40,962 bases of DNA, from NCBI RefSeq assembly GCF_900095385.1, contig NZ_FMID01000003.1:1-40962 (forward strand), read 5' to 3'. Made by a program: the position numbers and the translations under genes. Each line of letters starts with the position of its first letter. Positions within the stretch are counted from its first letter, which is position 1. The DNA is from Methanoculleus chikugoensis. GTDB taxonomy: Archaea; Halobacteriota; Methanomicrobia; Methanomicrobiales; Methanoculleaceae. The notes under the pieces are model-generated. The model was not told where the DNA came from and searched no databases. It saw only the letters and a list, made by a program, of their open reading frames with translations. Below, in pieces: positions 6,617-17,120 of this stretch.

Positions 6617-7891
6617 GTGCACATCACCGCAAAGATCAGGATTCAGGTCATACCTGAGCAGGAGGACGTGCTCTGGCATCTCTCCGAGAAGTGCCGATTA
6701 GTCTACAATTTTGCGCTTGCCGAGCGGAACCGAAATTACCAGGAAAACAAAGACAGACCCGGCAAACAGTACATCGGATATGTGCAGCAGGCGAACGCCC
6801 TCCCCAAGTTAAAGGAAAAGTATCCCGAGTACAAGTGGGTCTACTCAAAAGTGCTTCAAACGACGTTGAAGTCCCTGGACGACGACTTTCGCTCATTCTT
6901 CGCCCTGCGACAGAATGGGGATAAGGGGGCAAATCCCCCAGGGTTCAAGGGAAAAGACCACTTCTGCACGCTACGCTACAACCAGAGCGGATTCAAGATC
7001 GAGAGGGACCAGATCTGGTTCTCCCACTTCTACAACACGGTGCCACTGATCTTCGCCCTACCCGCTGGTTCTCAGTTCATCAACGTCAAACAGGTTGATC
7101 TCTTCTACGACGACATCAAGAGCGCGTACTATGTATCGATCGTTCATGAGGTCCAGCCGGCGCAGGAGTACCGTGACAACGGGCTCTACCAGGCGTTTGA
7201 CCTCGGGGTGACCCGGCACGTCGGGGTGAACAGTCACGGGAAGTTCATTGGGTTTTCTGTGGCTCGCCCGGACAAGTACTGGAAAACCCCGATCGCTGAG
7301 TTGCAGGCCCGGCGAGACCACTGTAAGAAGAAGAGTCGAAAGTGGCAGAAGCTGAACCGGCTCAAGCGGAAGTGTGAACGAAAACAGGGCAACCAGATCA
7401 AAGATTTCCAGCACAAATTGAGCAAGAAAATCGTTGAGAACACTCGCGCTAACACGATCCTCGTTGGGGATCTGAGCGTGAAGCAGATGCCCCGGTCCCG
7501 GCAGGCGACCCCGGGGCTCAACCGCGCCACCCAGAACACGGGACACCTGTCGCGGTTCATCAGATTTTTGACCTACAAGGCAACCCTTGCAGGTAAGAGA
7601 GTAATAAAAATCGATGAACAGAACACGACAAAAGCCTGTTGTGTCTGCGGGGCGCTTCACGACATGCCGCTCTGGAAGCGAGTTATAGAATGTGAGTGCG
7701 GGAACACCATGGATCGAGACCGGAACAGTGCGGTCAATATCATGGTACGGTTCCTATCACAGAATGCCCTGCGAACGGGCTACCGGCAGTTCGCCGATAA
7801 TCTGCGACAAACAGGTCTGGAAATTCCAGTACACTCGCAGGAAGCCCCCTGCGTAGGCGGGGGTAGTCCGCGGATTTGGGTAGTACCATAG
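6617..7891 (+). CDS. tnpB: TnpB (IS200/IS605-IS1341 type), RNA-guided nuclease family
   Basis: A 424-aa TnpB/OrfB-like protein. The N-terminal helical/wedge part has CRLVYNFALAERN and WVYSKVLQTTLKSLDDDF. RuvC-I is FDLGVTRHVGVN (Asp195). RuvC-II is ILVGDLSVKQM, where the usual catalytic Glu is Gly284. A zinc ribbon follows (C341/C344 and C359/C361), then RuvC-III DRDRNSAVNIM (Asp368). A glutamate at 334, in KIDEQNTTKACCVCG, might replace the missing one. No tnpA is present, so the element is an IS1341-type solo tnpB, unable to move alone. The family cleaves DNA guided by an RNA read from the element's right end. It lies 190 bases from the feo operon start, transcribed divergently. Confidence 0.93.
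   Translation: MHITAKIRIQVIPEQEDVLWHLSEKCRLVYNFALAERNRNYQENKDRPGKQYIGYVQQANALPKLKEKYPEYKWVYSKVLQTTLKSLDDDFRSFFALRQNGDKGANPPGFKGKDHFCTLRYNQSGFKIERDQIWFSHFYNTVPLIFALPAGSQFINVKQVDLFYDDIKSAYYVSIVHEVQPAQEYRDNGLYQAFDLGVTRHVGVNSHGKFIGFSVARPDKYWKTPIAELQARRDHCKKKSRKWQKLNRLKRKCERKQGNQIKDFQHKLSKKIVENTRANTILVGDLSVKQMPRSRQATPGLNRATQNTGHLSRFIRFLTYKATLAGKRVIKIDEQNTTKACCVCGALHDMPLWKRVIECECGNTMDRDRNSAVNIMVRFLSQNALRTGYRQFADNLRQTGLEIPVHSQEAPCVGGGSPRIWVVP
7841..7872 (+). mobile_element. Right-end hairpin of the tnpB element (candidate guide-RNA scaffold)
   Basis: Inside the 3' end of tnpB the sequence reads GAAG, five C, a short loop, then AGGCGGGGGTAGTCC. The C5/G5 arms are at 7845-7849 and 7859-7863. This resembles the conserved right end of archaeal IS1341-type elements (GAAGCCCCCGCC...GGCGGGGGTAG), which overlaps the tnpB end and forms the scaffold of the guide RNA. 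The left arm here is partly mismatched. The exact right boundary is not clear; it is probably within a few tens of bases after 7872. A similar, weaker GAAG-CCCC-AGGC block lies at about 6485-6510 on the other side of tnpB. Confidence 0.55.
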
Positions 7892-8200: not shown

Positions 8201-8287
8201 TGAATGTATCGGCCAGGCAGGTTTCCTGCCCGAGCCTGCACCCGGCAAGCATCAAGGCCTATATGGTTTTGGGGAGGAAGAGTGATC

Positions 8288-9919
8288 ATGGGAACCCCGG
8301 AGGGGCAGGTCACGAACAGGGATGTCGCCGAACGGCTCGCGTTGATGGCCCGCCTCCTCGGGATCGCGGGGGAGGACCGGTACCGGATCGCTGCCTACGA
8401 ACGGGCGGCGCGGCAGATCGACCGCCTCTCCCTCCCGGTCGCCGGGCTCGACGAGGAGGAACTCACCCGTATCCCGGGGATCGGAGAGAGGATTGCCGGA
8501 CAGATCCGCGAGATCGCCGCCACCGGAACGTTCGGGGAACTGAAAGATCTCCAGGCAGCCATACCCGGATCGGTCGTCGAACTGCTCGCCGTTGCCGGGG
8601 TGGGGCCGAGGACGCTCCACATCCTCTACACGAAGCTCGGCATCCGGAACCTGGACGACCTTGAGCAGGCGGTGAAGGGGCACCGCCTCAGGGCGCTCTC
8701 CGGGTTCGGGGCAAAGAAGGAGGAGACGATCAGGCGAGGAATCGAGCAGTTCCGGCAGAGGTCGAACCGGATGACCCGCCCGCAGGCCGACGCGGTGCTC
8801 GCGGACGTGGCGGCGGCACTGCCGGACGGCCGGTACATGGTTGCGGGGAGTTACCGGCGGGGATCGAGCACCGTGGGCAGGCTTGCGATCGTCGTTGCCG
8901 GGAACGGAACCGCCGCTGGAGACCGCATATCCACCGACGCCGTGGTGGACGTCCGGTTCACCGAACCCGGCCGGTGCGGCACCGCGCTCCTCTGCGCCAC
9001 CGGCTCGGCCGGGTTCCTGGAGAGGCTCGGGCAGGTGGCGGCGCGACAGGGCTACCGGCTCACGCCCGACGGTCTTGTGGAGACCGCAAACGGGCGGCTG
9101 CAGGAGTTCGCAAGCGAGGAGGAGGTCTTTTCGTTCCTCGGGATGGAGCCGGTTCCGCCGGAGCTGCGCGAGGACCGGGGCGAGATCAAACTCGCTCTCC
9201 GGCACGCCCTCCCCGATCTGGTCGATCTCTCAGACGTGCGGGGCGATCTTCACGCCCACACCACATGGAGCGACGGCCGCCAGTCGCTCGAAGACGTGGC
9301 TGAGGCGGGAGAGAGAAGGGGCTACGAGTACATCGCGATCACCGACCACTCTTCACGGGTGCGGGCTGAAGCCCTTCTAAAACAGCAGGCCGAGATCGAG
9401 CGCGTCAACCGGCGGCACGACTGCCGGCTCCTTGCCGGGAGCGAGGTGGACATCAAAAGCGACGGCACCCTCGGGTACGAGAACAGGGTTCTTGCCGACC
9501 TCGACCTGGTGATCGCCTCCGTCCACTCGGGGTTCTCCCAGGACCAGGACGTCCTGACCCGGCGCATCCTCACCGCGATGGAGAACGAGCACGTCGATAT
9601 CATCGGTCACCCCACCGGCCGCCTGCTCGGCCGCAGACCGCCGTATGCCGTCGACCTCGAGCGCGTTATCGCACACGCGGCGGCGACGGGGACGGCTCTC
9701 GAGATCAATGCATCGCCCCACCGGCTCGACCTTGAGGATATTTATATCCTGCAGGCCAAGAAAGAAGGAGTGAAACTGGCTGCAGGAACGGATGCCCATA
9801 GGAACGGCGAATTTTCAAACATGCGTTACGGAATTCTCATGGCACGCCGGGGCTGGTGCACCCCGGACGACGTCCTGAACACCCTCCCTCTATCCGCGCT
9901 GCTGGAGTGGACGTCATGA
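8288..9919 (+). CDS. polX: PolX-family protein: inactive-looking polymerase domain plus PHP phosphoesterase
   Basis: A 543-aa PolX-type protein. Residues 1-160 hold the helix-hairpin-helix DNA-binding part (RIPGIGERIAGQIREIA; AGVGPRTLHILYTKLGI; LSGFGAKKEETI). Residues 165-300 are the nucleotidyltransferase domain: GSYRRGSSTVG at 187-197 is present, but the metal-binding G-D-I-D that follows is GRLA (Arg198, Ala200); only the third Asp (VDVR, 221) remains. From about residue 319 the PHP domain is complete: GDLHAHTTWSDG, ITDHS, GSEVDI, SVHSGF, IGHPTGRLLG, EINASPHRLDL, GTDAHRNGEFSNM. It should therefore be a 3'-5' exonuclease or AP-site enzyme in base-excision repair without polymerase activity (inference). 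The start at 8288 has GGAGG about ten bases upstream. Confidence 0.9.
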   Translation: MGTPEGQVTNRDVAERLALMARLLGIAGEDRYRIAAYERAARQIDRLSLPVAGLDEEELTRIPGIGERIAGQIREIAATGTFGELKDLQAAIPGSVVELLAVAGVGPRTLHILYTKLGIRNLDDLEQAVKGHRLRALSGFGAKKEETIRRGIEQFRQRSNRMTRPQADAVLADVAAALPDGRYMVAGSYRRGSSTVGRLAIVVAGNGTAAGDRISTDAVVDVRFTEPGRCGTALLCATGSAGFLERLGQVAARQGYRLTPDGLVETANGRLQEFASEEEVFSFLGMEPVPPELREDRGEIKLALRHALPDLVDLSDVRGDLHAHTTWSDGRQSLEDVAEAGERRGYEYIAITDHSSRVRAEALLKQQAEIERVNRRHDCRLLAGSEVDIKSDGTLGYENRVLADLDLVIASVHSGFSQDQDVLTRRILTAMENEHVDIIGHPTGRLLGRRPPYAVDLERVIAHAAATGTALEINASPHRLDLEDIYILQAKKEGVKLAAGTDAHRNGEFSNMRYGILMARRGWCTPDDVLNTLPLSALLEWTS

Positions 9920-10506
9920 TCTACCGGTTCTACGAGAAGATCCTCCTCCGCGATCTCAGGACGCTCCCCGAGCACGTCTGCTTCATGATCACCGAGCAGG
10001 ATATGCTCGATGCACCCGGCAACCTCGCTCTTGCCGCACAGTGGTGCCGCGACCTCGGGATCAAGAGCGCCACGTTCCACATCAGCACCGCCGACCCCGC
10101 CCGGCTGGAACGCTGCCTCCCACGGATTCGGGAGGTAGCCTCGATCGCGCGCCTGACCCTGCACTACCGCGACGAGAAGGAGGTCAGCGGCGAAGGCATG
10201 GACGTGACGGTGGCGATCGGCAAGAGCGGCCGGGAGGAGATCGCCGGGTGCGTGCGAAGGATGGCCGAGGACGGAGTAGATCCGGAATCGGTCGACGAAG
10301 ACCTGCTGGAGTCGTACCTCACCTTCAAGTACGAGCCCGATCTCGTCATCAAGACCGGCGGCGACCACCTCACCGATTTTCTTATCTGGCAGTCGGTCTA
10401 CTCCGAACTCTTCTTCCTCGACGTCAACTGGGCGCTGCTCAGAAAAGTGGATTTCCTCCGGGCGCTCCGAGACTTCCAGTCGAGAGCGCGGCGGTTCGGG
10501 AAGTAA
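9916..10506 (+). CDS. cis-Prenyltransferase homologue lacking the catalytic motif (NgBR/Nus1-like subunit)
   Basis: A 196-aa protein of the undecaprenyl diphosphate synthase fold. The second half is clear: DLVIKTGGDHLTDFLIWQSV, YSELFFLDVNW, LRKVDFLRALRDFQSRARRF and a C-terminal RFGK (the R-x-G end motif). At the N-terminus, where catalytic enzymes have HVAVIQDGNRRYA, it has HVCFMITEQDML: the catalytic Asp is Thr26 and the phosphate-binding Gly-Asn-Arg-Arg is lost. This is the pattern of the non-catalytic subunit of heteromeric cis-prenyltransferases (NgBR/Nus1 in eukaryotes; a two-subunit enzyme is, as I recall, also known in Methanosarcina). Its start overlaps the polX stop (ATGA) with GGAG eight bases upstream. 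The likely partner is encoded at 10716-11495. Confidence 0.85.
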   Translation: MIYRFYEKILLRDLRTLPEHVCFMITEQDMLDAPGNLALAAQWCRDLGIKSATFHISTADPARLERCLPRIREVASIARLTLHYRDEKEVSGEGMDVTVAIGKSGREEIAGCVRRMAEDGVDPESVDEDLLESYLTFKYEPDLVIKTGGDHLTDFLIWQSVYSELFFLDVNWALLRKVDFLRALRDFQSRARRFGK

Positions 10507-10570
10507 GCCGGCGGTAGAGGCCCGTAACAAAATCTCACGCGAAGTGCGACGGGTGGATAATCCGGAGCAT

Positions 10571-10667
10571 GAGCACCGCAGGTGCGAAGTGCGCGAAGCC
10601 GGGAAGGGGAGTAGCCCAATCTGTCAACCGATCTTCGCGTTCTTCGCGGCTCGCACCTACGGTGCTC
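10571..10667 (+). repeat. REP-like inverted repeat between the two prenyltransferase genes
   Basis: GAGCACCGCAGGTGCGAAG (10571-10589) is repeated inverted at 10650-10667 (reverse complement GAGCACCGTAGGTGCGAG). Each arm is itself a small palindrome around GCACC-n-GGTGC, and CGCGAAG words surround both. A third copy lies at 23215-23233. The element fills the gap between two convergent genes and could also act as a bidirectional terminator. Confidence 0.65.
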
Positions 10668-10715
10668 AAGCTCGCTCGCACATCGCGTGAAGCCACGTCG
10701 GCGTGGAGGTAACCG

Positions 10716-11495
10716 TCAGCCCCGCCGGGCCACGCGCTCCTTGAGCCGCATGCGCTGGTCGTAGACCCGCATCGCCCGCAGAAGGTCGATCTTCCTGAAC
10801 GCCGGCCAGTAGGGGGCGCAGAAGTAGACGGCCGACTCGTGGCCGTTTGCGAGCCAGGGGAGGAAGTTCGAGGTCCGGTAATCGTTGCCGGTACGGATGA
10901 TCAGGTCGACGGGAGGTATGGGTGCTCCCCGGTTGAGGTGGGCCTCAACGGTCTCGGGATCGATGGCCGCCGGGTCGATGGCGCCCTCCCTGACCTCACC
11001 GAGGATCGACCGGGCGGCGTGCACGATCTCGTTCCGGCCGCCGTAGGCGAGCGCGATGTTGATGAAGTAATCGCTGTAGTGCCGGGTCGCCTCCTCCGCC
11101 GCATCGATGGTTGCAAGGAGTTCGCCGGGGAGGAGGGATCGATCGCCGATCATCTGGACACGGATACGGTTCCGGTGCACCCGCTCGTCCTTCATGACCG
11201 CGGTGAACTTCTCCCGGAAGAGACGAAAGAGCGATTCGAGCTCGCTGCTATCCCGCCGGAAGTTCTCCGTGGAGAAGGTGTAGAGCGTGATATGCTGCAC
11301 GCCGAGTTCGCACGCCCAGTCGAGAACCTGCTCCGTCGCATCCGCTCCGAGCCGGTGGCCGACCGCCGTATCGAGCCCCTGTTCCCGGGCATACCGGCGG
11401 TTCCCGTCCTGGATCACCGCGACGTGCCGGGGGACATGCTTCACCTGCCACTTCAGGTATCGCTCGTAGAGAGGCTCAATCCCCGATCGCAACAT
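10716..11495 (-). CDS. uppS: cis-Prenyltransferase, catalytic subunit (polyprenyl diphosphate synthase)
   Basis: A 259-aa enzyme that adds isopentenyl units to an allylic diphosphate in cis to make the lipid carrier (dolichol type in archaea) for glycosylation. The catalytic motif HVAVIQDGNRRYA is intact (Asp30), as are FSTENFRRDSSELESLF, AYGGRNEIVHA and DLIIRTGNDYRTSNFLPW. The C-terminal end is RMRLKERVARRG rather than the usual RERRFGG. The start at 11495 overlaps the stop of the upstream radical SAM gene (TGATG), so the two are coupled. A non-catalytic homologue is encoded on the opposite strand 209 bases away, suggesting a heteromeric enzyme. Confidence 0.95.
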   Translation of the reverse strand: MLRSGIEPLYERYLKWQVKHVPRHVAVIQDGNRRYAREQGLDTAVGHRLGADATEQVLDWACELGVQHITLYTFSTENFRRDSSELESLFRLFREKFTAVMKDERVHRNRIRVQMIGDRSLLPGELLATIDAAEEATRHYSDYFINIALAYGGRNEIVHAARSILGEVREGAIDPAAIDPETVEAHLNRGAPIPPVDLIIRTGNDYRTSNFLPWLANGHESAVYFCAPYWPAFRKIDLLRAMRVYDQRMRLKERVARRG

Positions 11496-12505
11496 CAGAG
11501 CGGCGTCACCTCGACCACCATACCGCCGTTCGGGTAGCGCTCGACGACGTACTTCCTGCCCGGCAGCCCGGCACCGTGCTCGGTGAGCACCCACCACGCC
11601 ATCTCGATCCGCCCCTCAGAGACTGCATACTCATCGTCATCAAACTCCTCCAGGAACCCGTCGACGGCACCCTCCGGCTCGAGCACCCCGTATACGACGG
11701 TTCCGTCATCCGTCACCTCCTCGAACGGACGCGCAGTATTGGCAGCGATCCGCTTTAACCGTTCCCGTAACTGGACCGAGTCCTTGAAGACCGACGAGCA
11801 GAAGTGGACTTTCGGATCGCCGGCGAGCTTCTCCGCCCACCGGCGGGCACCCAACACGGCGTTGTGCACGCCGTCCTCGAGTTCGAGCCCGCGCTCGCGC
11901 ATGGCGGCGGCGCAGGTCTCGCCCCACTCCAGCTCGTTGATGTTGAGGAAGTCGAGGAGCGGGAGGGCGGCGGCAAGGTCCTCGATCCCCGGGAGCGCCG
12001 GCACCTCGATACCGATGAGGAAGCCCATCTCCCGGGCGAGGACGGCGGATCGGGCAAAATCGGTCTCGATAATCTGCGGCCAGACCTCATGAGGCGGGTG
12101 CAACCGGATCTCGTCGACCAGCCCCTGCAGGCGCCGGAGCACGGCTTCGTCCGGCGCAAGGCCGGTGTAGAGGTGGATCTGGTGATCCGGGCCGAAGCGC
12201 TCCTTGAGAGCGCGGCAGTACTCCACCACCCGGTCGAGTTCAATCAGCGGTTCGCCGCCGGTGACGCCGGTCCCGAGAGCGCTCATGCTCTCCGCAACCT
12301 CGATGGCCTCAGACGGCGACGAGACCTGCCGTTCGTTTGCAAAGACCACGTCCCGGCCTTTTCGCTCGCGCGAGAGCGGGCAGTACCAGCAGGTGCGGCG
12401 ACACCGGCCGGTCACGAAGAGGACCATCTTCGCTCCCTGGTGGCAGAGGACGCACCCCGGCGAGAGTGATACTCCATCCGGGGCTATTCCAGAGTCCTGT
12501 GGCAT
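11495..12505 (-). CDS. Radical SAM protein (PflA-related, possibly COG2108)
   Basis: A 336-aa protein with the radical SAM cluster motif CRRTCWYC (Cys35, 39, 42), followed by CPLS and the glycine motif VTGGEPLIE. An additional GCVLC pair (Cys18, Cys21) lies just before it. The rest shows the partial TIM barrel (IHLYTGLAP, IGIEVPALPGIE, LNINELEWGE). It resembles archaeal proteins related to pyruvate formate-lyase activating enzyme; the substrate is unknown. It is transcribed just ahead of uppS with overlapping stop and start codons. No ribosome-binding site is visible before the ATG at 12505, so translation may be leaderless. Confidence 0.8.
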   Translation of the reverse strand: MPQDSGIAPDGVSLSPGCVLCHQGAKMVLFVTGRCRRTCWYCPLSRERKGRDVVFANERQVSSPSEAIEVAESMSALGTGVTGGEPLIELDRVVEYCRALKERFGPDHQIHLYTGLAPDEAVLRRLQGLVDEIRLHPPHEVWPQIIETDFARSAVLAREMGFLIGIEVPALPGIEDLAAALPLLDFLNINELEWGETCAAAMRERGLELEDGVHNAVLGARRWAEKLAGDPKVHFCSSVFKDSVQLRERLKRIAANTARPFEEVTDDGTVVYGVLEPEGAVDGFLEEFDDDEYAVSEGRIEMAWWVLTEHGAGLPGRKYVVERYPNGGMVVEVTPL

Positions 12506-12650
12506 GTCGTAGTAATAATGGAGGGCGGAGATGAAAAGGTTTGATGGTGGGGGATAGGGGTAGCAAAACGGCGACCTTTCCGATTGTTGAGCGCCGTATT
12601 CCTGCGGTTTCTTGTTTCCGGATGAAGAAACGCAAGGGGGCGAACAATAC

Positions 12651-12658
12651 ATAAATAT
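12651..12658 (+). promoter_or_regulatory. TATA box for the pilin-like gene cluster
   Basis: ATAAATAT in the AT-rich stretch ACATAAATATAGACTT, about 30 bases before the ATG at 12687. At archaeal spacing the transcript would have almost no leader. The region lies between the divergent radical SAM and pilin-like genes. Confidence 0.6.
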
Positions 12659-12686
12659 AGACTTCGCGCAGAGAATTACCCAGACT

Positions 12687-13580
12687 ATGCCGCTGTGCGC
12701 ACGTGATGACGGCCTCTCGGAGGTCGTCGGTTTCGTCCTGCTCCTCGCCCTGATCGTCGTGGCGCTCTCGCTCTACCAGGTCTACGGCGTCCCGGCAGCG
12801 GGAAGAGAGGCGGAGATCGCGCACATGAACCAGGTGAAGGACCGGTTCGTCGATTACAAGATTGCTCTCGACTCACTCTGGCTGAACAACAGGAACGGCG
12901 TCCTCCTCTCGACGGCCTTTGACCTCGGGACGGGGGCGGGAGCGACCGGGGGCAGCGCCTTCGCGCTCCCCATCCTCACCCCCGCGGGGTCGGGAGGGAC
13001 GGTCTCGGCGAAGAGCGAGGGAGCGAACCTGACGATTGCGCCCGAGGGGAAGGACCCGGTGACCATCCCCCTCGGCAGCCTCTCCTACAGTTCCTCGAAC
13101 AACTACTGGGTCGACCAGACCTGGACATACCAGGGGGGCGCGATCTTTCTTTCCCAGGAGGGGGGGACGACGGTGCGGGTCGGGCCGTCGATAGCGGCGG
13201 CGAAGACGGAGGACGGCAACATCACCCTCACCGTAGCCCCGATCAGCCTCGAGGGTTCGGCCGGGATTGCGGGGTCGGGGCCGGTGCGGGTCGAGACCAG
13301 GATGCGCTGGAGCGAACCCTCCTCCCTCAGCGGGACCTACGACCGGGTGAACCTGACCGTCGAGGCCGACGATCCGGCGACGGCCCGGGCCTGGAAGAGG
13401 GCGTTCGACGAGGTCCGGCAGAGGGCGATCGAGGAGAACGTCGAACCTTCACGGCTATCGACCGGACAGAGCGGGAATACGGCCACGCTCACCGTCCAGC
13501 CGGAGACGAAGGTGTTCCTCACCGTATACCCGGCGAACTACACGGTCTCGGTCTACAACGCGGCGTCCCTGATGGAGTGA
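12687..13580 (+). CDS. Secreted protein with archaeal type IV pilin-like N-terminus
   Basis: A 297-aa protein. The start MPLCARDDGLSEVVGFVLLL followed by ALIVVALSLYQVYGVP is a short charged leader, a G-L-S-E-V-V-G junction and one long hydrophobic helix, the pattern of archaeal class III signal peptides (pilin N-terminal domain, PF07790-like, or DUF7289-like). The remaining 250 residues are glycine, serine and threonine rich beta-type sequence with several N-x-S/T sites (NLTIAPE, NITLTV, NLTVEA, NYTVSV). It is likely a minor pilin or surface protein anchored through the helix. Its stop overlaps the next gene's start by one base, and three related genes follow one another. Confidence 0.7.
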   Translation: MPLCARDDGLSEVVGFVLLLALIVVALSLYQVYGVPAAGREAEIAHMNQVKDRFVDYKIALDSLWLNNRNGVLLSTAFDLGTGAGATGGSAFALPILTPAGSGGTVSAKSEGANLTIAPEGKDPVTIPLGSLSYSSSNNYWVDQTWTYQGGAIFLSQEGGTTVRVGPSIAAAKTEDGNITLTVAPISLEGSAGIAGSGPVRVETRMRWSEPSSLSGTYDRVNLTVEADDPATARAWKRAFDEVRQRAIEENVEPSRLSTGQSGNTATLTVQPETKVFLTVYPANYTVSVYNAASLME

Positions 13581-14413
13581 TGGGTGTGAGACGGCATCGT
13601 AGTGAAGAAGGAGTCTCCGAACTGGTCGGAGCCATGCTCCTGATCGGCCTGACCGTCATCGGCGTCGCGCTCGTGGGGATAGTCTTCCTCTCCAGCCCCC
13701 AGCCGGACGCGATCCCCCGGGCGGCCATCGCCGCGGGAGTTAACGAGACCGGTCGCCTCGTCCTCGTCCACGATGGGGGCGATCCCCTGAGAGCGGGCGA
13801 CTACCGGATCTACGTCGATACCGGGAGCGGGCTTGTGGACAGGACCGATGCGTTCGCCGGACTCAAAGACGGCGCGTGGTCGGTTGGCGGGAGCCTCGTC
13901 TACAACGGCTCAACACCGGAACGGGTGATCGTGACCGCGGTCTCGGGGGGCACCGAGACGATCCTTGCAGAACCGGAGTTCCGGGGCGGGACCGGGAGGT
14001 TCTCCCCCGACCCGGTGGGGCCGGGGGTGACACCGGTGGTGACAGTGACTCCGACTCCAACGCCCGAAGATGTGATTATTAATCTTCCCAAAATAAATGA
14101 AAGTTTAATAGCCCTACCAAAAAAAGCGACGATAGATGCGACGATAACATTGGAACAGGCGAGCTATGCCCACATAACCCTCTACAACTATGACGCTGTG
14201 AAGCGTGGAGAGAATAATCCAAAAATAACAGTTGCAATGATGACTTCTGAAGCGCTCGGAGATCTCTATACCTCCGAAGAGATTAATCTCAACGGTTTCA
14301 CAACCGGCGATCATCCCAATGATCGCATAGCAGTGGTGATCATCATCTATGACAGTAACGACGACCCCCTCATGTCCATAACAACGATGGGTGTTGTCCA
14401 GAGCGCGCATTGA
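13580..14413 (+). CDS. Pilin-like surface protein with an AT-rich C-terminal domain
   Basis: A 277-aa protein with SEEGVSELVGAMLLIGLTVI followed by GVALVGIVFLSSP, a class III signal peptide and hydrophobic helix, then a globular part with LVLVHDGGDPLRAGDYRIYVD. The same order of motifs occurs in the next gene, so the two are paralogues. A proline/threonine linker (VTPTPTPE, about residue 160) separates a C-terminal domain of about 110 aa. From about base 14070 the DNA is clearly richer in A and T than the rest of the gene and its neighbours, which suggests that this domain was acquired or exchanged. ATG overlaps the upstream stop; GTG at 13586 is an alternative start. Confidence 0.7.
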   Translation: MGVRRHRSEEGVSELVGAMLLIGLTVIGVALVGIVFLSSPQPDAIPRAAIAAGVNETGRLVLVHDGGDPLRAGDYRIYVDTGSGLVDRTDAFAGLKDGAWSVGGSLVYNGSTPERVIVTAVSGGTETILAEPEFRGGTGRFSPDPVGPGVTPVVTVTPTPTPEDVIINLPKINESLIALPKKATIDATITLEQASYAHITLYNYDAVKRGENNPKITVAMMTSEALGDLYTSEEINLNGFTTGDHPNDRIAVVIIIYDSNDDPLMSITTMGVVQSAH

Positions 14414-14414
14414 A

Positions 14415-15668
14415 ATGTCCAACGACACCGCCACCTCCGATCTCATCGCCACGATGGCACTCATCGCCGTCTTCGTGACAGCGGTGGCGATCCTCGGGGT
14501 GGCGCTCCTCTCCAGCCCCCCCGGCGACGCGGCACCCGCGATGCTCGCCCGCAGTGTTGTGGGAGAGGACGGCAAACTCTCCATCCACCACGACGGCGGC
14601 GACTCCCTCGAACGGGGGCGCTTCGCGATCCTGGTCGACGGCGTCAGGAGAGATGATCTCGATCTAATCGATGCCTCGGGAGTCGAACACGACACCTGGA
14701 CGTCGTGGGAGACCGGAGAGGCCCTCGTCCTCGGTGGTGTGCCCGAGGGCGCCCACATCCAGATCGTCGCCGGCGGTGTGAGCCGCACCGGCAGCACCTG
14801 GCTCCTCCATGACTTCGGGAACGGTTCGGCAGCGGAGCAGGTGCCCCTTGTCGCCGGCTTCACCGCCGACCCCACATCCGGCCCCGCACCCCTCCCGGTG
14901 CAGTTCACCGACACCTCCGCGGGAGGGGCGACCTCGTGGTCCTGGAGCTTCGGCGACGGCGGCACGTCAACAGCGCAGAACCCGATCTACGTCTACGTCA
15001 ACCCGGGGACATACACCGTGACGCTGACGGCCAACAACGCACGCGGGAACGACACCGAAACGAAGCCCGGATACATCACCGTTGCCACCCCCATCATCGC
15101 TGACTTCACGGCCGACGTCGCCACCGGTACGGCGCCCCTTACGGTACGGTTCACCGACCTCTCCAGCGGTGATGGGCTTACATCGTGGTTCTGGAACTTC
15201 GGCGACGGCGGTACGTCAACAGCGCAGAACCCGGTTCATACCTACAACAATATAGGGACGTATACCGTCTCTCTGACAGTTGAGAACGCCCTCAGCAATG
15301 AAACCGTGACGAAGTCGAATTACATCACGGTTGCAGAGGAGCACATCTCCCGGCTGGAGGTGAACTCGGTCAGACAACGGCTGATCCTGGGCGGGTACAT
15401 CTCGGTCAACGACATCGGCATCGGTTATACCGGAGGCTCCGGAACGGGATCGGACATGACACCGTTCGCCCTCAGCAGGACTGCTTTGGGCGACTCCGGT
15501 TTCAGTGTCACGCTGACGGCGCCCGATAGCATAGGACTCTGGCCCCTGTTATGGGACTTCGAAAGGTGGGAGGTTGGCGATACATCGTACGGAAGCAGGA
15601 TAATCAGTGTATCGGTTGCCGACGACGAAAGACGGACAGCCACGGCGTATTACGATTTCTGGCTCTAG
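14415..15668 (+). CDS. Pilin-like N-terminus with two PKD domains
   Basis: A 417-aa surface protein. Residues 10-33 form a hydrophobic helix (LIATMALIAVFVTAVAILGV), followed by LSIHHDGGDSLERGRFAILV as in the preceding gene. Two PKD domains follow at about 146-223 and 228-306, each with the FGDGG motif and a GTYTV strand. The repeats share a near-identical stretch of DNA (around 14947 and 15197), so the duplication is recent or homogenised. The last 110 residues have no recognised domain. PKD domains are common in methanogen surface proteins and mediate adhesion or spacing. The gene starts one base after the previous stop and has no clear ribosome-binding site. Confidence 0.75.
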   Translation: MSNDTATSDLIATMALIAVFVTAVAILGVALLSSPPGDAAPAMLARSVVGEDGKLSIHHDGGDSLERGRFAILVDGVRRDDLDLIDASGVEHDTWTSWETGEALVLGGVPEGAHIQIVAGGVSRTGSTWLLHDFGNGSAAEQVPLVAGFTADPTSGPAPLPVQFTDTSAGGATSWSWSFGDGGTSTAQNPIYVYVNPGTYTVTLTANNARGNDTETKPGYITVATPIIADFTADVATGTAPLTVRFTDLSSGDGLTSWFWNFGDGGTSTAQNPVHTYNNIGTYTVSLTVENALSNETVTKSNYITVAEEHISRLEVNSVRQRLILGGYISVNDIGIGYTGGSGTGSDMTPFALSRTALGDSGFSVTLTAPDSIGLWPLLWDFERWEVGDTSYGSRIISVSVADDERRTATAYYDFWL

Positions 15669-15741: not shown

Positions 15742-16905
15742 TTACAGAAAGTCTTGCGGCTCCCTCACCCTTCCTTCGTCCACCAGTTCCGTGTAATCGT
15801 CGAACCAGTAGGCCTTCGGGTTGCTCTTATAGACCATGAACCGTCCGAGATCCGCCGGGTCTGCCGCCTGGTTGTACTTGAAGTAGGTGTGCCTGTCCGT
15901 CTTCCCGAGCACCTCGATCTTCCCCGTCGCGTGAGAGATCACGAACCGGGCCCGTTTCGCAAGCCCCGAGCAGATCGTGCGGGCCTGCTCGAAGATCCGG
16001 TATGACTCCTCCACCGGCACCGCGAACGTCCTGTTGCCGACCGACGGACGACACTGGAAGACATAGTAAGGGTTCGCGCCGATGAACGAGAGTTTGTCGA
16101 AGAGCGCCGCAAGCACCTCCGGGTCGTCGTTGATGCCGCGGATGAGCGGCGTCTGGTTCATCACGACCGCTCCGGCATCCTGCAGGAGAGCGACCGCCCG
16201 GCACGCGGCATCGGTCAGTTCCCTCGGGTGATTGAACTGCGCCATGATGTAGATACGCTTCTCGTCCATGCTGTAGCCCCGGATCATGTCCAGCAGCGTC
16301 GGATCGTTGATGATCCGGAAGGGATTGTATGCCGGCATCTTCGTGCCGATCCGGATGATCCCGACATGATCGATCTCGCGGATCTGCCGGACGATATCGA
16401 GCAGCCGGCCGGTCTCGAGGAACAGGGGATCGCCCCCCGTAAGGAGGACGTTCGTGATCTCCGGATGGTCCCCGATGTAGGCAAGCCCCGCGGAGATCTC
16501 GTTATTCACCTCGTGCGCCTCCTCGATGAAGAGGCGCTTGCGGAAACAGTAGCGGCAGAGGCCGCCGCAGATGTCACTCACGAGCAGGAGAGCGGTCTCA
16601 CGATATTTATGCTGCAGTCCCGGAGCCTGAGTATACCGGTGCTCCGACGACGGGTCGAGATGCCCCCAGGGCTCAAGCTCCTCGACGGTCGGCACGATCA
16701 GCCGACGGATAGGGTCGGCGGGGTCATCCCAGTCGATCAGCGAGAGATAATAGTCGTTCGCACGGAACGCGAAGTGGTCGGTCACCTCCGCAAGGCGGGC
16801 GCGCTCCTCCGGACCGATACCGGGAACCGAATCGAGCGATGTGACATAGATCGGGTCTCTGGTCTCCTCCCCGATCGTGTTTTGGATATCGTACGTCGTG
16901 TTCAT
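15742..16905 (-). CDS. KamA-family radical SAM aminomutase (lysine 2,3-aminomutase-like)
   Basis: A 387-aa protein of the KamA family. The [4Fe-4S] motif is CGGLCRYC (Cys113, 117, 120) followed by FRKR, then LLTGGDPLFLE, RIGTKMPAYNPFRI, MAQFNHPRELT, MNQTPLIRGINDDPEVL and YYVFQCRPSVGNRTF, all in the order of lysine/glutamate 2,3-aminomutases, which need PLP and SAM. In methanogens AblA makes beta-lysine for the osmolyte N-epsilon-acetyl-beta-lysine, but the acetyltransferase gene ablB is not adjacent, so substrate and role are uncertain. The start at 16905 has GGGAGGT upstream. No partner gene shares its transcript. Confidence 0.8.
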   Translation of the reverse strand: MNTTYDIQNTIGEETRDPIYVTSLDSVPGIGPEERARLAEVTDHFAFRANDYYLSLIDWDDPADPIRRLIVPTVEELEPWGHLDPSSEHRYTQAPGLQHKYRETALLLVSDICGGLCRYCFRKRLFIEEAHEVNNEISAGLAYIGDHPEITNVLLTGGDPLFLETGRLLDIVRQIREIDHVGIIRIGTKMPAYNPFRIINDPTLLDMIRGYSMDEKRIYIMAQFNHPRELTDAACRAVALLQDAGAVVMNQTPLIRGINDDPEVLAALFDKLSFIGANPYYVFQCRPSVGNRTFAVPVEESYRIFEQARTICSGLAKRARFVISHATGKIEVLGKTDRHTYFKYNQAADPADLGRFMVYKSNPKAYWFDDYTELVDEGRVREPQDFL

Positions 16906-17120
16906 GAAGTACCTCCCAGCCGACACTCTCCAGTGCAGATACAATCCGCTAACTGCCGGGGACAGGTGCACGAGAGCAGAGATCGTGAATGAAATCCGAT
17001 CTACGCAAAGGTTCATGAGAGTTTCATGTTCTCATGCAGGAAACCGTCGCTCCGACATGCGTCATTGAGTGTCGGATTACGTGTTGCAACTCAAAAGGGT
17101 TCTGAGGATATTTATATTTT
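16906..17120 (-). promoter_or_regulatory. Promoter and structured leader of the aminomutase gene
   Basis: A TATA-like stretch (minus strand AAATATAAATAT, about 17109-17120) lies roughly 200 bases before the start codon, so the mRNA would carry a long leader. Inside it are two perfect 7-bp inverted repeats: TCCGACA/TGTCGGA (17051-17057 and 17070-17076) and CATGAGA/TCTCATG (17014-17020 and 17030-17036). They could be RNA hairpins or operator sites. No known riboswitch is recognised. Confidence 0.4.

Follow-up and report, generated by a model that had tools for sequence, protein, structure and literature searches.

Two convergent genes of the methanogen Methanoculleus chikugoensis, here called P1 and P2, appear to encode the two subunits of a heteromeric cis-prenyltransferase that makes a polyprenyl glycosyl carrier lipid, in which P2 would provide the active site and P1 would contribute the C-terminal RxG motif in trans. 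The probability of this reading is estimated at approximately 0.9. A pair composed of a catalytic and an NgBR-like subunit had been proposed in the initial annotation of this DNA, and the proposal is supported by the complementary loss of motifs, the purifying selection acting on both proteins, their common fold, their co-occurrence throughout the phylum, the adjacency of the genes, the lack of further cis-prenyltransferases in the genome, and a Methanosarcina mazei pair matched by elimination.

The gene pair and its locus

The window, i.e., the whole stretch of DNA that was analysed, comprises 40,962 nucleotides. Both open reading frames were confirmed at the positions and on the strands initially assigned to them, in convergent orientation and with their stop codons separated by 209 nt (Table 1). 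P1 and P2 both belong to Pfam family PF01255, and a whole-genome search revealed no third copy in this genome, which is 99.7% complete; because these two are the only PF01255 genes present, the carrier lipid must come from P1 or P2. The two genes do not form one operon, as they lie on opposite strands and the start of each shares an ATGA with the end of an unrelated upstream gene. These overlaps suggest that polX and the radical SAM gene are probably co-transcribed with P1 and P2, respectively.

Table 1. Features of the P1-P2 locus (window coordinates).
Feature	Position	Strand	Description
P1	9916..10506	+	196 aa; putative non-catalytic, NgBR-like cis-prenyltransferase subunit; TEQDM for DGNRR, KTGG for RTGG, C-terminal RRFGK
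P2	10716..11495	-	259 aa; putative catalytic cis-prenyltransferase subunit; DGNRR 30-34, FSTEN, IIRTGNDYR; canonical C-terminal RxG absent
TEQDM codons, standing for DGNRR (P1)	9991..10005	+	From the sequence and the alignment with P2
R-F-G-K codons (RxG motif, P1 C-terminus)	10492..10503	+	From the sequence; reach into the partner active site predicted from human NgBR (PMC7573591)
P1-P2 intergenic region, tail to tail	10507..10715		Long inverted repeat, dispersed in the genome; outside the enzyme
polX (family X DNA polymerase with PHP domain)	8204..9919	+	TGA overlaps the P1 ATG (ATGA); probable co-transcribed upstream gene
Radical SAM gene	11495..12652	-	TGA overlaps the P2 ATG (ATGA); probable co-transcribed upstream gene

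Division of motifs between the two proteins

P2 matches PF01255 with 225.8 bits over profile positions 1-216, and its catalytic motif is complete, as had been claimed: DGNRR contains Asp30 and is accompanied by FSTEN and by the substrate arginines of IIRTGN-YR. To the earlier description it should be added that the canonical C-terminal RxG is missing from P2, the end at that place reading QRMRLKER... The terminal '...VARRG' of P2 was considered as a substitute and rejected, since it lies beyond the end of the domain and is not kept within the genus (ARGG, ARRA, ARGS, DRRA, and LYS occur there). Within the genus, the dN/dS of P2 is 0.10-0.21. The AlphaFold2 (AF2) model of P2 (pLDDT 92) finds its best structural match in human DHDDS (Z 30.5, rmsd 2.6, 248 aligned residues), and the next rows score at least 1.4 lower.

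P1 (MIYRFYEKI...HVCFMITEQDML...RARRFGK) is approximately 60 residues shorter than P2 and matches PF01255 with 87.3 bits over profile positions 108-219 only, i.e., in its C-terminal half. The retention of the cis-prenyltransferase fold claimed for it is borne out by the Pfam match and by its AF2 model (pLDDT 87), which matches cis-prenyltransferases with Z up to 16.3; the model lacks the long helices 2/3 found in P2, and its first element is a short helix (residues 2-13) directly before the domain. The replacement of DGNRR by TEQDM, with threonine in place of the catalytic aspartate, also holds, as HVCFMI-TEQDM of P1 aligns with HVAVIQ-DGNRR of P2 and Thr26 thus corresponds to Asp30. Likewise, FHIST-D stands in place of FSTEN, and KTGGDHL is found where P2 has RTGNDYR, so the arginines that bind isopentenyl diphosphate (IPP) are gone. 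The C-terminal RxG noted earlier is present at the place of the canonical UppS motif; within it and around it, R190, R192, and G195 are invariant and R193 is nearly invariant (alignment A3). Among diverse members, residues 141-196 have a mean identity of 66% and residues 20-95 of 15-29%; the N-terminal part of P2 that matches the latter stretch has kept 56% identity. Judged from these sequences, the N-terminal, active-site half of P1 is decayed, whereas the half that carries the predicted interface and RxG is conserved.

Such a decayed half raises the question of whether P1 might be a degenerating duplicate or pseudogene of a cis-prenyltransferase, a reading to which the short, poorly conserved N-terminus and the restriction of the Pfam match to the C-terminal half would lend themselves. 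However, 59 of 61 near relatives carry an intact P1 orthologue, the gene is likewise intact across the phylum, the C-terminal residues are invariant, and dN/dS within the genus is about 0.10-0.19. With an omega of about 0.1, P1 evolves under purifying selection. Selection and distribution together refute the pseudogene reading, to which practically no weight can be given. It is also very improbable that P1 is catalytically active in spite of its changed motif, e.g., as a short-chain or irregular prenyltransferase of the kind of MM_0014 from M. mazei. P1 shares the fold with such enzymes, and Asp29 is frequently retained inside the replaced motif; nonetheless, DGN and the FSTEN-type motif are absent, RTGG-HR is reduced to KTGG-HL, the chain is shortened and has no tunnel helices, and genes of the MM_0014 type form a distinct clade in which DGN is retained.

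Taken as a heteromeric enzyme, P1/P2 would add isopentenyl diphosphate units to an allylic diphosphate and thereby form the methanogen's glycosyl carrier lipid, a polyprenyl compound of the dolichol type. The sole working active site would be that of P2, in which FSTEN, DGNRR with the catalytic Asp30, and the arginines of IIRTGN-YR that bind IPP are all present. P1, which is of the same fold but has a decayed and truncated N-terminal half, would lack a usable active site and would dimerise via its conserved C-terminal half. The R-x-G tail of P1 may then cross the interface and complete the pyrophosphate site of P2, whose own RxG is lost. The product would presumably be C45-50 in length, as reported for the M. 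mazei pair.

Distribution across Halobacteriota

The survey covered 147 genomes of a single phylum, Halobacteriota. PF01255 was found in 145 of them, nearly always in exactly two copies. The P1 type was recognised in 143 genomes by the P1 profile (A1) and in one more as a short form read by eye, and at least 144 of the 147 genomes carry both types. In family f15, two genomes were flagged as being without P1, and each has a second PF01255 copy that is short; the copy in G077 is without DGN and ends in KERERRFGR (by eye), and that in G069 is known solely as a PF01255 match extending to the end of the profile. No PF01255 matches were obtained in G010, G007, G066, and G074, i.e., two Methanoculleus assemblies (83% and 95% complete, G010 being the latter) and two genomes of family f12, possibly owing to gaps or masked stretches.

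Among the fetched sequences, DGN occurs in none of 64 P1 relatives; the C-terminal motif is RxG in 62 of these and KxG (KFG) in the other two. DGNRR is present in all P2 relatives (88/88), and RxG at its canonical place in one. This single protein, L058 from genome G160, has RRFGG there, and G160 also has a P1-type match. The intact orthologues of P1, the phylum-wide RxG end without DGN, and the dN/dS of about 0.1 show that the motif pattern of P1 is not a product of chance. In a phylogenetic tree, P1 and P2 each form one clade (support 93/96 and 87/73, respectively), which suggests that the split between them arose once, before these families diverged. The division of motifs between a catalytic and an RxG subunit is strict within the phylum and probably had a single origin there. 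It should be noted that the correlation between P1 and P2 distances (r = 0.87) is uninformative about partnership, because species history, or shared ancestry alone, would yield it.

P1 and P2 lie less than 5 kb apart in 51 genomes from 15 families (e.g., L187-L205), and in all 51, which are not independent of one another, they are convergent, i.e., tail to tail. The polX and radical SAM neighbours upstream are kept in many Methanomicrobiales and are absent at the 20 pair loci outside this order, so what is conserved as a unit is P1 together with P2. A lasting tail-to-tail order of genes that are unable to share a transcript is unusual. Adjacency has been lost in several families, e.g., the Methanosarcina-type family f8. 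The locus had been described as a compact archaeal version of the eukaryotic system; compactness is not a trait of the family, as the subunit genes do not form an operon and lie far apart in many relatives.

Comparison with Methanosarcina mazei

According to PMC8131916, which cites Emi et al. 2019, MM_0618 and MM_1083 of M. mazei form a heteromeric cis-prenyltransferase with C45-50 products, which exists beside MM_0014. Genome G172 of the survey is identified as Methanosarcina by a close orthologue of MM_0014/MA1831, and its other two PF01255 genes comprise one P1 (L217) and one P2 (L218), with the motifs split as in the window pair. L217 and L218 are matched as a pair with MM_0618/MM_1083 by elimination, once the MM_0014 orthologue is set aside, and not by sequence; by the same route, P1 and P2 of the window are very likely orthologous to MM_0618/MM_1083. 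The M. mazei pair would then share with P1/P2 the motif split and, probably, a C45-50 precursor of the glycosyl carrier. The two systems differ in that a large distance separates the genes in Methanosarcina-type genomes (f8), whereas they are tail to tail in Methanoculleus, and in that Methanosarcina has MM_0014 as a third enzyme, whereas the Methanoculleus genome has none.

P2 could nevertheless be a self-sufficient homodimer, perhaps with some activity of its own like UppS, in which case P1 would be a separate regulator or would have acquired a new function. The catalytic residues of P2 form a complete set, and the two genes, on opposite strands, have different upstream partners, as might be expected of independent proteins. 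Set against this, the canonical RxG is missing in 87 of 88 P2 relatives yet kept in P1, both types are found together across the phylum, copies that lie close to each other are convergent without exception, and the equivalent M. mazei pair is reported to be heteromeric. An independently acting P2 is accordingly considered unlikely, and the heteromeric enzyme is the preferred reading. This kind of enzyme was already known from M. mazei; what is new is that it extends to practically all of the phylum Halobacteriota as sampled.

Relation to DHDDS/NgBR, Nus1, and UppS

The catalytic subunits of human DHDDS/NgBR, of yeast Rer2 or Srt1/Nus1, and of plant CPT/LEW1 have DGNRR and no RxG end, like P2, and their partners NgBR, Nus1, and LEW1 are non-catalytic, lack DGN, and end in RxG, like P1. 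In the human complex, the interface is formed by helices and a strand linker, the RxG tail of NgBR enters the active site of DHDDS, and NgBR itself is without a cavity (PMC7573591). P1 shows the pattern expected of an NgBR-like partner, and the conservation of those elements from which the human interface is built lends indirect support to a heterodimer with a crossing RxG tail. Homodimeric UppS enzymes (E. coli, B. subtilis, Rv1086) resemble P2 in fold and catalytic motifs, and the C-terminal half of P1 resembles Rv1086 and E. coli UppS, the UppS end being RERRFG; however, UppS combines DGNxR and RxG in one chain, and neither P1 nor P2 has both. There are further differences from the human enzyme. 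NgBR/Nus1 has an N-terminal transmembrane anchor, whereas none was seen in P1, which by eye has no hydrophobic stretch at its N-terminus; DHDDS has a C-terminal helix-turn-helix through which a dimer of heterodimers forms, whereas P2 has a short C-terminus without one.

It is possible, although doubtful, that a single archaeal ancestor gave rise to both archaeal P1 and eukaryotic NgBR/Nus1, in which case the two-subunit dolichol enzyme would be older than eukaryotes and would not have arisen twice. This idea stems from three findings. First, a profile of the P1 N-terminus (95 residues), compared with the PDB, matches DHDDS (6.6e-5) and NUS1 (about 7e-4) ahead of the bacterial enzymes (Rv1086, 0.005; best bacterial UppS proper, 0.37). 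Second, this profile aligns NgBR LPVHMGLVITEV with archaeal LPkhialviteeD, such that LVITEVE of NgBR stands opposite FMITEQD or LVITERD of archaeal P1, the DG of the motif being replaced by the same ITE in human NgBR and in many archaeal P1 proteins. Third, the best match of the P2 profile is DHDDS (E 1e-71). In full-length comparison, NUS1 scores under the canonical enzymes, and P1 is overall less like NgBR than like those enzymes. In the tree, for which the human NUS1 letters were taken from an alignment made with a chimeric query, a NUS1 piece joined with P1, the NUS1 end branch is too long to place (4.06 changes per site), and neither P1 (p-AU 0.41) nor DHDDS (p-AU 0.44) is rejected as its sister. 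The NUS1 structure 7pb1_B matches the P1 model in Foldseek at rank 44 (E 2.6e-9); NUS1 is missing among the best 50 structural rows for P1, which says nothing against kinship. Lombard 2016 does not mention prenyltransferases. The term NgBR-like can therefore be maintained for the way in which P1 would work, whereas common descent with NgBR/Nus1 is unproven.

The RxG and active-site residues of human DHDDS/NgBR are sites of disease. Archaeal pairs, being small and soluble, could offer a simple model of the human complex, and the origin of NgBR becomes testable through them once Asgard and more eukaryotic sequences are included.

Intergenic region and neighbouring genes

Between the two genes, positions 10540-10700 are predicted by folding to form a long GC-rich hairpin (z -5.7). 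Pieces of this intergenic stretch occur at approximately 40 sites in the genome with 71-97% identity, i.e., it is a dispersed repeat, and the P1-P2 gap ranges from tens to hundreds of bases across Methanoculleus relatives. Farther upstream of P1, positions 6617-7891 of the window hold a TnpB-like gene of an IS605-type element (Cas12f1-like TNB and OrfB_IS605 domains), flanked by a DtxR/FeoA-type regulator and polX. On the other side, genes for pilin-like and other surface-type proteins (DUF7289, Pilin_N) adjoin the radical SAM gene at 12612-15668, and a radical SAM gene resembling KamA/lysine 2,3-aminomutase, which scores under the equivalog cut-offs, lies at 15742-17016.
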